DNA of 64,000 nt from Acinetobacter sp. C26M. GTDB taxonomy: Bacteria; Pseudomonadota; Gammaproteobacteria; Pseudomonadales; Moraxellaceae. A program made the position numbers and the translations under genes. Shown in pieces: positions 23,649 to 64,000 of the stretch. Positions within the stretch are counted from its first letter, which is position 1. Each line of letters begins with the position of its first letter. A model generated the notes under the pieces. That model did no database searches. It was not told where the DNA came from and worked only from the letters and a program-made list of their open reading frames with translations. The stretch spans positions 3,869,698-3,933,697 of the forward strand of contig NZ_CP098478.1 in assembly GCF_023702675.1 (NCBI RefSeq), given 5' to 3'.

Positions 23649-23682
23649 AAACAAAAAACCGATGTTTCACGTGAAACATCGG
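23649..23682 (-). terminator. parS site doubling as the esterase-gene terminator
   Basis: CCGATGTTTCACGTGAAACATCGG is a perfect 24-base palindrome (23659-23682) containing the exact consensus parS TGTTTCACGTGAAACA (23663-23678). Read on the minus strand it is followed by TTTTTTGTTTT (23649-23658) and lies 11 bases after the stop of the esterase gene, so the RNA can form a ten-base-pair stem with a four-base loop: a standard intrinsic terminator. The site appears to serve both ParB binding and transcription termination. Confidence 0.85.
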
Positions 23683-36012: not shown

Positions 36013-37311
36013 TTACCGCATCATTTGCTTCGCTTGTTCCTGACGGAACGCACGAAGAATCTGCTGCCCTGCGCGTCCAGTCGGGTTCAAACCTAAGCGA
36101 GTTTGTTCTTGGCGAATTGCTTGTCGGCTTTTATCACCAATCAAACCATCGACTGCACCAATATCATAACCACGTTGCACTAAAAACTTTTGAATTTCAC
36201 GACGTTCTGCACGGGATGTCCCAGCATCATCGGTTGGCCAAGCAGTTAAAAATGGCGTACCCCCACGTAAACGATCGGATAAATGCGCAATGGCTAAACC
36301 ATAGCTTTCAGCCGCGTTATAACTATAAATTGCATCGAAATTTTTAAATACTAGGAATAATGGACCATTGGCACCCGCTGGTGAAATCAAACCAGCTGGT
36401 GTACTGCCCGATAAATTACCTTGAATCAACGCAGTACCATCAGCCCGGGTGACCCCTTGCGCAATCCAGCTATTCAGTGCTTTCTTATTACGACGACTTT
36501 CACCAGAGATCGACATCCCTTGTGGAATTTTGACTTCAAAACCCCACGGCATGCCAGTTTGCCACCCTGCTCGTTTTAAGAAATTAGCTGTCGAAGCCAA
36601 GGCATCGGTGGTACTTGAAACCAAATCACGGCGGCCATCTCCATCGAAATCGACGGCTAAACGTTCATAAGTTGATGGCATAAATTGAGTATGGCCAAAC
36701 GCACCAGCCCATGAACCATAAAGCTGGTCTTGGGTTAAATCACCACGTTGTAAAATACGCATGGTGGCAAAAAACTCGCCACGGAAATAACTTTGACGGC
36801 GACCTTCACAGCTCAAAGTACCCAATGCCTGTAATAAAGGATATTTACCCGAAATATCACCATAGTTACTTTCGACGCCCCACACTGCTACGACCGTTTC
36901 GGCAGGCACACCATATGCCTGCTCAACTCGGTTCAAGACGGCACGATGTTGACTAAGTTTTTGCTGCCCTGCTTGTACACGCTCGTTATCCACAAGGCCC
37001 GACAAATAATCCCAGATCGGTGTCGAAAATTCAGGCTGATAATTTAATTTATCAATCACGGAATAATCTGGGGTTAAATTTTGCGTATAGCGATCATACG
37101 TTGCACCTGATACACCCGATGCAATCGCCTGTGAACGTAAATTGGCAATACAACCCTGGAAATTGGAATTTGGCGTATAATTACTGCTGGTAACAGCTGC
37201 TGTTGTGGTCGATGTCGAAACTGTTGCACCGTTAATCACAAGCTCGGCATGCGCCTGATTGAAAAAAGTAAATAAGGCAGTGCCTAGAAAAAAAGAAAAA
37301 TGACGTTTCAT
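36013..37311 (-). CDS. MltB-type lytic murein transglycosylase
   Basis: A 432-residue glycoside hydrolase family 103 enzyme that cleaves peptidoglycan glycan strands to 1,6-anhydromuramyl products. I take ATG 37311 (signal peptide MKRHFSFFLGTALFTFF..AHA); an in-frame GTG at 37350 would bury the signal. The catalytic Glu lies in AVWGVESNYGDISGKYP. The SLT segment SWAGAFGHTQFMPSTY and DGDGRRDLVSS are typical of MltB. The C-terminus carries a peptidoglycan-binding domain (LVQRGYDIGAVDGLIGDKSR). No lipobox, so the form is periplasmic and soluble. The upstream side is the DnaA-box region. Confidence 0.93.
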   Translation of the reverse strand: MKRHFSFFLGTALFTFFNQAHAELVINGATVSTSTTTAAVTSSNYTPNSNFQGCIANLRSQAIASGVSGATYDRYTQNLTPDYSVIDKLNYQPEFSTPIWDYLSGLVDNERVQAGQQKLSQHRAVLNRVEQAYGVPAETVVAVWGVESNYGDISGKYPLLQALGTLSCEGRRQSYFRGEFFATMRILQRGDLTQDQLYGSWAGAFGHTQFMPSTYERLAVDFDGDGRRDLVSSTTDALASTANFLKRAGWQTGMPWGFEVKIPQGMSISGESRRNKKALNSWIAQGVTRADGTALIQGNLSGSTPAGLISPAGANGPLFLVFKNFDAIYSYNAAESYGLAIAHLSDRLRGGTPFLTAWPTDDAGTSRAERREIQKFLVQRGYDIGAVDGLIGDKSRQAIRQEQTRLGLNPTGRAGQQILRAFRQEQAKQMMR

Positions 37312-37908
37312 GTCTGAACCAAAACTTTTGAATTTAAATTTCCTCTCCACCTTAACACGCTCTATGAAGATGTATAGTTTGGAAACGTAACTTTAAATTC
37401 ATTTGGCGGCTTTTAAATTTAAAACCCTGTTTTTAAATTCATAATTCAGGCTTTATTTTAAATTTAAAAGTTATCAACAAGGTTTGTTTAAATTCAAAAA
37501 CATCACCACTGGATAACACGTCGGTTTTAAATTTAAAACTTATCCACTTTTAAATTCATTTTTCCATATAAACGAGTGATTGTTTCAAACAGGATCCCAC
37601 AAGGATAACAAACCCATATTTTTTATGCAGTTATTATAGAAGAAACAGATACCCACAACCCAACAATTTAAATTTAAAAGTTAACCACTCCCTCAGTTTT
37701 AAATTTAAAACAATACCCTCGTTTTGAATTTAAAACCCACAGACACTTATCCACTGTCATTTAAATTCAAACAACCTCCACTATTTTAAATTCAAAATAT
37801 CAAAAACAAGTTATCCACAATAGACTCTTTCTCTATTTTTAAATTTAAAAAGTATATGAAATAAAAAAAGCGATCCAAAGATCGCTTTTTTAGGTGTTGT
37901 GGATAAGT
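37312..37908. other. DnaA-box and A+T-repeat cluster resembling an origin or DnaA-binding locus
   Basis: About 600 bases between the divergently placed mltB start and the purK 3' end, with no gene. It holds about 14 copies of a TTTRAATTYAAA-type motif (from about 37327 to 37851; for example TTTTAAATTTAAAA at 37411, 37525, 37697 and 37837) and a series of DnaA boxes: TTATCCACA at 37811-37819 and, reversed, at 37898-37906; TTATCCACT at 37540 and 37747; TTATCAACA at 37471; and the reverse of TTATCCAGT at 37508. The same two motif types occur in the rpmH-dnaA region at the window end. It may be a second origin element, a DnaA-titrating site or a DnaA-reactivating site. Confidence 0.7.
37864..37891 (-). 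terminator. purE-purK terminator
   Basis: AAAAAAGCGATC (37864-37875), loop CAAA, GATCGCTTTTTT (37880-37891). It lies 18 bases beyond the purK stop on the minus strand; the stem carries T's in both directions. Confidence 0.92.
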
Positions 37909-39030
37909 TTAGATGCTCATATCATCGGTTAATGCCAATGGAACAGGTAATATTTTCGCCAATTGACGGCATAAACTTGTTAAATCATCTGAATGATTTG
38001 GCATCAAAGTAATATGTCCTAGCTTACGACCCGTACGTTCAGACTTATTATAGAGATGTAAATGCGCGCCATTCAGTGCCAAAACATCTTCTGACTTGGG
38101 ATGCTGACCAATAATATTGATCATCACACTTGGGCGAATCACTTCAGTTGCACCCAATGGTAAACCTGCAACCGCACGAATATGGTTTTCAAATTGCGAG
38201 CAAATCGCGCCTTCAATTGACCAATGTCCTGAATTATGCACACGACAGGCCATTTCATTGGCGCATAAACCTTGTTCTGTGACAAATAGTTCAAGTGTGA
38301 GAACACCCACGTAATCTAAGTGCTTCAACAAACGGGTAATATAGTCTTGCGCAACAGGCTGTAAATCAGCGCTATTTGGTGCAGGTACGATTGAGTGTGA
38401 CAAGATACCATTATGATGGTGATTCTCGGCCAAAGCCCAAGTTTTCACATCACCATTTTGTCCACGTACCGCGATGATCGATACTTCACGGCTAAATTTG
38501 ACAAAACTTTCTGCGACCAAACTTTTTGCAGGACCTAATTCAGTCCAAGCTGTTTCAATTTGATCTTCAGAGCGTAAAACGAATTGACCCTTACCATCAT
38601 AGCCACCAGTTACGGTTTTTAAGACGATGGGTAATCCAAGATCAGATACCGCTTGTTTTAAGCTCTCTAAGCTATCCACAGCACGATACGGCGCAACAGG
38701 AATACTTAACTCATCAAACAAACGTTTTTCAGCTAAACGATTTTGTGCAGTCGCCAAAGCAAGGCGAGGAGGGTGCAAAGTTTTGCTTTGCGTCAAAACA
38801 TCAACATCTGTAACAGGCGTATTTTCAAATTCAAGACTAAATACATCTGCACTTGCAATAAAATCTTGTAAGCCCTGTGCCGCTTGACTCGAAAAGACTG
38901 GACCCAAAATCGCAGCAGGACAATCTGTTTCTGCTTCAAAGAAGGTGCATTGAATATTAAGTGGTAACGCTGCTTGCGCCATCATCCGGCCTAGCTGCCC
39001 ACCACCAAAAATGCCAATCGTTTTATTCAT
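37909..39030 (-). CDS. purK: N5-carboxyaminoimidazole ribonucleotide synthase
   Basis: A 373-residue ATP-grasp enzyme that carboxylates AIR with bicarbonate and ATP in purine biosynthesis. It opens IGIFGGGQLGRMMAQAAL, has the ATP-grasp segments LPIVLKTVTGGYDGKGQFVL and VAESFVKFSREVSIIAVR, and ends in the PurK C-terminal domain (MINIIGQHP...LHLYNKSERTGRKLGHITLM). It pairs with PurE, whose gene lies 172 bases upstream, probably in one operon. A DnaA box overlaps its last codons (37898-37906 begins three bases beyond the gene). Confidence 0.96.
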   Translation of the reverse strand: MNKTIGIFGGGQLGRMMAQAALPLNIQCTFFEAETDCPAAILGPVFSSQAAQGLQDFIASADVFSLEFENTPVTDVDVLTQSKTLHPPRLALATAQNRLAEKRLFDELSIPVAPYRAVDSLESLKQAVSDLGLPIVLKTVTGGYDGKGQFVLRSEDQIETAWTELGPAKSLVAESFVKFSREVSIIAVRGQNGDVKTWALAENHHHNGILSHSIVPAPNSADLQPVAQDYITRLLKHLDYVGVLTLELFVTEQGLCANEMACRVHNSGHWSIEGAICSQFENHIRAVAGLPLGATEVIRPSVMINIIGQHPKSEDVLALNGAHLHLYNKSERTGRKLGHITLMPNHSDDLTSLCRQLAKILPVPLALTDDMSI

Positions 39031-57060: not shown

Positions 57061-57477
57061 GACAAACACTCAACTTTAAAATCAGCGGCTATTGTAATCA
57101 GTCGGATCATTACGAACAGCTTAGCTTACTCAGCAACAACCAAAACCCAACCAACACTAGCGATGTTTCACGTGGAACATCGATTAATGCTGTCAAATTA
57201 CGTTAAAAATCACTGAGCCGATGATCTATTGCGTAAAAACAAGACAATTTTCACACATCATATTGATAATTATTTAATAATTTTAACAAGTATATAGATC
57301 AATACATGGCTTTTTGGAATAATTCAGCCCACTGACTAAGTCGTGATCATTAGACTTGATTGCATAGCAGATGGTCCATTGCTGTTTTCATTTTAAAGCA
57401 ATAGGTCTATGTTTATCTTATTGGATTATCTGAGTCAGTACTGAACACCGTTTCATTTTAAAAGGTTAGGTAAATCA
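57061..57477. other. dsbC-pilU intergenic region with a parS site
   Basis: About 417 bases without a gene. It contains the parS-like palindrome at 57164-57179 and the divergent promoters of dsbC and the PilU-like gene; no strong -35/-10 pairs were assigned. Confidence 0.6.
57164..57179. other. parS-like site
   Basis: TGTTTCACGTGGAACA, matching the parS consensus TGTTNCACGTGNAACA and identical to the site in ssuC. It lies in a longer near-palindrome (57161-57182) and is the site closest to the origin. Confidence 0.88.
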
Positions 57478-63540: not shown

Positions 63541-64000
63541 ACAAACAAGCTTATCAACAATTCAACTTCTGATTTAAATTTAATTCTTGGATTTTGAATT
63601 TAAATTTCGATATGCTCAGTTATCCACAATTTAAGTAAACCCTATAAGTAAATTCAAATTTTAAAATTTAAATTTATTCTTATTAGGGTGGATTAATTCT
63701 GTGGAAAGTGATGTTTTTTTATGAATAAACATGATGTTATGTTGTGGATAAGCATGTTTTTATCAATTTTATAGTTTGTGGATAACTTTGATCTTAAAAC
63801 TATCCACAGTTTGTGCAAAAAGTTATGCACATGCAGTTTTGAATTTAAATTTATAAACGGATGCTGTCTTTTTCAGCAAAAGTCCCATAAATTGTCCTGA
63901 CAGATGTGGATAACTTGGTTAGAATGGCGGCCCCTTTGAAAGATGAGGGGTGACGGTTTTTTATTTTTGAATTTAAAAAATGGATATATAGGGGATGCAC
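63541..64000. other. Chromosomal origin region (oriC) upstream of dnaA
   Basis: About 460 A+T-rich bases with no gene and many DnaA boxes: TTATCAACA 63551, TTATCCACA 63620, reverse TTATCCACA at 63743, 63777 and 63905, and one-mismatch boxes at 63800 (CTATCCACA) and 63823 (TTATGCACA). Four or more TTTRAATTYAAA motifs also occur (for example near 63590, 63660, 63838 and 63966). Position between rpmH and the expected dnaA is the classical gammaproteobacterial origin. The unwinding element is not pinned down. Confidence 0.8.

Follow-up and report, generated by a model that had tools for sequence, protein, structure and literature searches.

In Acinetobacter baumannii ATCC 17978, the motif TTTRAATTYAAA is the proposed target of the orphan N6-adenine methylase AamA, as reported from SMRT sequencing of this strain and of an aamA mutant (PMC10483419). 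The same report describes AamA-dependent methylation on both strands in the wild type and the loss of motif methylation in the mutant. In the first run, methylated sites were densest in region 1 (29 sites) and region 2 (9 sites; rnpA/dnaA), and the 12-mer TATGAATTCAAA has its single chromosomal occurrence in that strain within region 1. The aamA mutant grew more slowly and dnaA was among the genes raised 1.5-2.4-fold; complementation restored neither growth nor the dnaA level. The effect was interpreted as gene-expression control, and oriC and purK are absent from the main text of PMC10483419. Overexpression of aamA in other strains also led to slow growth (PMC9769888), and a second group found TNTNAATTNAAA to be partially methylated in all strains tested, offering AamA as a possible cause (PMC10287943). 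A machine-learning study labelled TAAATTTAAATTTA, a motif of the Acinetobacter oriC, as a 'DnaA trio' (PMC7174414).

The motif, the enzyme and the methylation hot spots are already published, and regulatory clusters of DnaA boxes are a known kind of element. E. coli datA (DDAH) is an intergenic DnaA-box cluster that lies apart from oriC and is duplicated early. The DARS core consists of three boxes, with box I opposed to boxes II and III (PMC5742627). Chromosomal box clusters of B. subtilis and Streptomyces repress untimely initiation; they resemble the locus described here in being box clusters, but the relevant part of PMC5742627 mentions no methylation array at them. The portions of the cited literature used here give no account of how Acinetobacter restricts replication to one start per cycle. 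Among the matches listed in a search of open-licence PMC titles and abstracts, none treated the purK-mltB locus as a DnaA-box array or addressed its conservation.

The purK-mltB intergenic array

The window analysed here is the final 64 kb of the 3,933,697-bp chromosome of Acinetobacter sp. C26M. The first base of the record is the dnaA start, which on the circular genome is the base directly after position 64000. The purK-mltB gap is a non-coding segment of 597 bp (37312-37908), about 26 kb from oriC, and carries the same 12-bp motif as AamA regions 1 and 2 (PMC10483419). The features of the gap, its borders and oriC are as follows.

36013..37311, minus strand: mltB-type lytic transglycosylase, 432 aa (SLT_2; TIGR02283); its start codon is one border of the array
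37327..37849, both strands because TTTRAATTYAAA is palindromic: AamA-motif array
37327, 37412, 37457, 37487, 37526, 37667, 37698, 37723, 37760, 37785 and 37838: starts of exact TTTRAATTYAAA
37392, 37432 and 37549: near copies of TTTRAATTYAAA with 1-2 mismatches
37471..37479, plus strand: predicted DnaA box with one mismatch, TTATCAACA
37508..37516, minus strand: weak predicted DnaA box with two mismatches, TTATCCAGT
37540..37548, plus strand: predicted DnaA box with one mismatch, TTATCCACT
37747..37755, plus strand: predicted DnaA box with one mismatch, TTATCCACT
37811..37819, plus strand: perfect predicted DnaA box, TTATCCACA, shared by most of the aligned sequences
37862..37891, no strand assigned: terminator-like GCGATC..GATCGC hairpin 3' of purK, with T-runs flanking both sides, recognised by reading the sequence and alignment
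37898..37906, minus strand: perfect predicted DnaA box directly past the purK stop codon, invariant in an 8-sequence alignment
37909..39030, minus strand: purK (TIGR01161); its stop codon is the other border of the array
63550..64000, no strand assigned: oriC (rpmH-dnaA gap), with 3 exact TTTRAATTYAAA and 4 perfect TTATCCACA

To score DnaA boxes, mismatches to the consensus TTATCCACA were counted. The gap contains 11 exact copies of TTTRAATTYAAA, compared to a mean of 0.02 and a maximum of 1 in 1000 dinucleotide shuffles, and five boxes with at most one mismatch (2 perfect), compared to a shuffle mean of 0.25 and a maximum of 3. Genome-wide there are 29 exact sites, of which 11 fall in the purK-mltB gap and 3 in rpmH-dnaA. 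When boxes with at most one mismatch were counted per 600 bp, in 50-bp steps over 400 kb around the origin, oriC ranked highest (7) and the purK-mltB locus second (5). The preliminary description had noted an unusual density of repeats and boxes, and the shuffles place this beyond chance. Its figure of about 14 repeats is fair (11 exact and 3 near copies), and its count of about six boxes, two of them perfect, is correct with the two-mismatch box at 37508 added to the 2 perfect and 3 one-mismatch boxes. The recurrence of both elements at the rpmH-dnaA region also holds. Outside the array and oriC, two further TTTRAATTYAAA pairs, 84 and 108 bp apart, are found in the same genome (G000:C1:188471-188566 and 221322-221441). 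Separately, the array is flanked on either side by parS-like sites (23663-23678, 2311-2326 and 57164-57179), of which one is a perfect TGTTTCACGTGAAACA and the other two each carry a single mismatch; allowing up to 3 mismatches gives 4 hits, compared to 0.5 expected.

Distribution of motifs, boxes and AamA

To follow the locus in relatives, we used purK loci from 80 named genomes, the best 80 of 159 relatives, so that close ones are favoured. Of these, 78 extend to mltB; in the other two (L047 and L058) the contig ends before mltB, and they were left out of the gap counts. Exact TTTRAATTYAAA occurs 783 times in the 56.1 kb of the 78 gaps, compared to 3 times in 648 kb of flanks. In this sample of the best 80 of 159, 5-15 motifs are present in 77/78 gaps and 1-4 perfect boxes in 74/78. 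The only gap with no motif, L038, appears to come from an incomplete genome, G129, to judge by a dnaA of matching position and size. Perfect boxes total 156 in the 78 gaps, compared to 10 shuffle sets with 0-2 apiece, all these conservation and shuffle counts being made irrespective of shared ancestry. The preliminary description had named conservation in close species as a check that could refute it, and these numbers leave it standing.

In three clades, identity to the reference was 93-99% at motif bases, 90-95% at box bases and 71-79% at other bases, a score that favours motifs and boxes as the conserved sites were defined on a reference. In the third clade, the share of fully invariant columns did not set motifs (49%) apart from the remaining sequence (47%). 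Together, the alignments indicate that motifs and boxes are kept as the spacers drift. Between clades the positions of motifs and boxes turn over and their counts stay steady (5-15 motifs, 1-4 perfect boxes), as expected if dose matters. At five of the loci other sequence lies within the array. In L025, L026 and L029 this is a fatty-acid-desaturase-like gene, judged by its translation, with motifs and boxes flanking it on both sides; in L016, which belongs to a very close relative of the C26M genome, and in L031, these are frames that resemble transposases, judged by eye to be IS30-like and IS5-like.

Close motif pairs, some of them at oriC, were found in 168/175 Acinetobacter genomes, compared to 3 for a reversed control. 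The array is also present upstream of mltB in 4/4 genomes of a sister genus. Each of these four arrays comprises 6-8 exact motifs plus two perfect boxes, and three of them are more than 1 kb away from the mltB match. At the origin itself, TTTRAATTYAAA was found in 28/29 oriC regions, the lone miss having just 208 bp upstream; two more loci, whose records start at dnaA, were left out of this count.

We next consider the enzyme. The sole match to the D12-class methylases (PF02086) in the genome is a 430-aa protein adjoining ribD and lying beside an nrdR-like frame, the latter recognised by eye. Its class, its neighbours and its genus-wide presence, rather than a direct comparison, suggest that this protein is AamA (A1S_0222). 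A relative was detected in 173/175 Acinetobacter genomes and missed only in G169 and in G129, which is 65% complete. The miss in G169 likely reflects a gap, since the neighbouring ribD is also missing. With these as the sole misses, the 175 genomes include no clean aamA-null genome, and joint loss of AamA and the array was rejected as a line of evidence. Among 328 genomes of the family, 11 from outside Acinetobacter have a match at 1e-30 or better, four of them a close one. A comparison of AamA with solved structures gave no sequence match at E 0.01. Within 700 bp upstream of dnaA, an exact TTTRAATTYAAA is found in 4/4 sister-genus genomes with a close AamA and in 0/6 non-Acinetobacter genomes lacking one (G185, G178, G175, G190, G196 and G184). 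These six are the genomes, of 11 lacking a close AamA, in which the dnaA start could be placed, and as they are few and related, it is only suggestive that the motif upstream of dnaA tracks a close AamA outside the genus. As to the proposal that the repeats could be bound by an origin protein not yet known, these data answer it in part: a protein that acts on TTTRAATTYAAA is on record, the motif being the published AamA target (PMC10483419), with a relative in 173/175 genomes.

We also asked how the array relates to the published hot spots. A single TATGAATTCAAA lies towards the mltB end of each of eight arrays from the A. calcoaceticus-baumannii group (L039-L045 and L051). The published 12-mers give 25-27 strand hits in these arrays, compared to 29 region-1 sites in another species, and the oriC of two of the group's species has 9 strand hits, the figure given for region 2. 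From these three observations we infer that region 1 of A. baumannii ATCC 17978 is the purK-mltB array.

Eleven low-motif Acinetobacter genomes were picked for inspection upstream of mltB. Five, all small genomes (G003, G005, G009, G080 and G144), have 0-4 motifs within 1.1 kb before mltB. The last 500 bp ahead of the mltB match in these five still contain 3-7 DnaA boxes of one mismatch or fewer, and for each genome no more than one of 200 shuffles had as many. The persistence of boxes without motifs argues that DnaA binding may be the older or central job of the locus. The other six (G148, G130, G101, G153, G085 and G147) have 0-1 boxes before mltB and no array, which indicates that the array is dispensable. 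We found purK upstream of mltB in G005, G009, G080 and G144, and did not find it there in G003 or in any of these six. Five loci from other genera that lack a close AamA likewise have just 0-1 boxes before mltB. In the G003 locus (L169), the region 200-380 bp upstream of the mltB match has seven boxes close to the DnaA consensus (ATATCCACA, AGTGGATAA and the like), spaced 17-36 bp and for the most part alternating in direction; it has no AamA motif, and an upstream purK was not found.

Spacing within the array and distance to oriC

In 34 dissimilar arrays, the spacings between adjacent motifs favour 14, 19-20, 25, 30 and 36-37 bp. The spacing resonance at 5.7 bp was 0.377 in these arrays, whose spacers are unlike one another, compared to a maximum of 0.23 in 2000 jittered sets. 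Helical phasing of the motifs at 10.5 bp was considered and rejected, the preferred step being instead about 5.6-5.7 bp. Perfect boxes in 52 arrays also recur at certain offsets from motifs (25, 23 and 22 cases compared to maxima of 11, 10 and 12 when boxes were shifted), these preferred offsets having been chosen post hoc from the same data.

Thirty genomes were searched for dnaA, and 22 of them have the array and dnaA on one record. The array lies 17-45 kb from dnaA (median 21 kb), which is transcribed away from it in 22/22 genomes. This distance may be plain synteny, since mltB is about 20 kb from dnaA even in G003, where the motif array is absent.

Candidate functions of the array

The purK-mltB array resembles datA in being a DnaA-box cluster outside oriC, and its distance from oriC implies that it is replicated early. 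Unlike datA, it has no consensus IHF site, most arrays have mixed box directions, and it is far nearer to oriC and interleaved with methylation sites. The IHF consensus was not enriched in the arrays, with 17 occurrences in 78 arrays compared to 14.9 in shuffles, although this test is weak. Boxes have a uniform direction in just 14/78 arrays; in this window 4/5 boxes with at most one mismatch point the same way. With DARS1 and DARS2 of E. coli the array shares a DnaA-box cluster outside oriC and differs in lacking the three-box core. Membership of DARS, or of datA in the strict sense, was rejected, and the array is filed under neither name because the IHF site, the uniform direction and the three-box core were not found. 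It may still work like datA, and a datA-like titration site is the most likely working model. With Dam/SeqA at E. coli oriC (PMC5742627) there is a different likeness, in palindromic adenine-methylation sites at the origin beside DnaA boxes. Palindromic m6A target sites, candidates by sequence, are clustered at oriC in 28/29 cases. Unlike the GATC/Dam pair, Acinetobacter uses a rare 12-bp motif and another enzyme.

We give about even weight to a model in which the origin-linked array of AamA targets and DnaA boxes is a DnaA sink gated by methylation that would damp re-initiation right after oriC fires. In its favour are the density of motifs and boxes over shuffles, their conservation despite turnover of positions, the preferred spacings and offsets, the short distance to oriC, the boxes that persist with few or no motifs, the AamA relative in 173/175 genomes and, in the published aamA mutant, the loss of motif methylation, the raised dnaA and the slower growth. 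The replication fork would duplicate the array soon after initiation and thereby double the dose of DnaA boxes near the origin. Its passage would also leave a dozen regularly spaced AamA sites hemimethylated. DnaA, or a putative reader of the sites next to the boxes, would then occupy the array in another way until its remethylation by AamA, and this altered occupancy would keep DnaA off oriC for a set time.

Alternatively, the array may be a landing pad for a reader of methylated or hemimethylated TTTRAATTYAAA, a different protein with a SeqA-like role in origin cohesion, sequestration or segregation, with the boxes secondary. Motifs exceed perfect boxes about 5 to 1 (783 to 156), their spacing is quantised, TTTRAATTYAAA is also found in 28/29 oriC regions and parS-like sites flank the array on both sides, all of which fit such a role. 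This explanation predicts that motifs would outlast boxes, but it is the boxes that remain in the five species with few or no motifs, and we regard it as somewhat unlikely.

The array could instead be a promoter element through which AamA methylation, along with DnaA, adjusts how strongly mltB, and perhaps also purK, is transcribed. It occupies the space 5' of mltB, its last motif in many loci is within about 30 bp of the mltB start codon, and the block adjoining this start is strongly conserved in the 8-sequence alignment. Consistent with this, 'mltA', which is possibly the same gene as mltB here, is reported to be changed 1.6-fold in the aamA mutant and restored by complementation (PMC10483419). 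However, at about 520 bp and reaching the terminator-like hairpin of purK, the array exceeds what a promoter needs. It is also split by IS elements or the desaturase-like gene in 5/78 loci, and the motif and boxes occur at oriC too. Promoter control is in our view distinctly unlikely as the explanation of the array.

The preliminary description had also raised a DARS-like site, which would recharge DnaA with ATP. The array is indeed a box cluster outside oriC, and in one clade (L040-L042, L044, L045 and L051) two boxes lie close together in divergent orientation. Three boxes within 60 bp, the nearest approach to the three-box core, were found in just 2/78 arrays compared to 28/29 oriC regions, which makes this role very improbable. 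There is less still to suggest that the array serves to titrate AamA itself, or that an AT-rich repeat has simply spread with no function, and we give these ideas scarcely any credence: regions 1 and 2 have the highest published density of methylation (PMC10483419), but motifs are kept as spacers diverge, and the identity of 13-bp spacers is barely greater within arrays (4.6/13, 21 pairs) than between arrays (4.0/13, 385 pairs), which gives little sign of repeat copying. The suggestion that the array is the real replication start, or a second one, drew on its dense DnaA boxes and AT-rich repeats and is hardly credible, as cumulative GC skew over 400 kb declines through 37.6 kb to a minimum 322 bp before dnaA, within the rpmH-dnaA box cluster and 26 kb from the array, the keto-skew minimum is at -435 bp from dnaA, three boxes fall within 60 bp in 2/78 arrays compared to 28/29 rpmH-dnaA gaps, and several species have no array.

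Returning to the methylation-gated DnaA sink, its wider implication is put forward tentatively. Acinetobacter and its sister genus may possibly time replication by a separate clock that depends on neither Dam/SeqA nor CcrM. In it AamA, a lineage-specific methylase, would place a dozen regularly spaced marks on a dedicated DnaA-binding array 20-odd kb from oriC and a few more within oriC, and while hemimethylated after fork passage the array would trap DnaA and so set the timing of the following round. The 'DnaA trio' motif TAAATTTAAATTTA overlaps an AamA site, which opens an alternative reading of that label (PMC7174414). Species that have boxes but few or no methylation sites provide a natural contrast. 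In the purK-mltB array, one cleanly deletable locus ties a cluster of DnaA boxes to an orphan methylase that matters for growth and to a hot spot of methylation published without an explanation.
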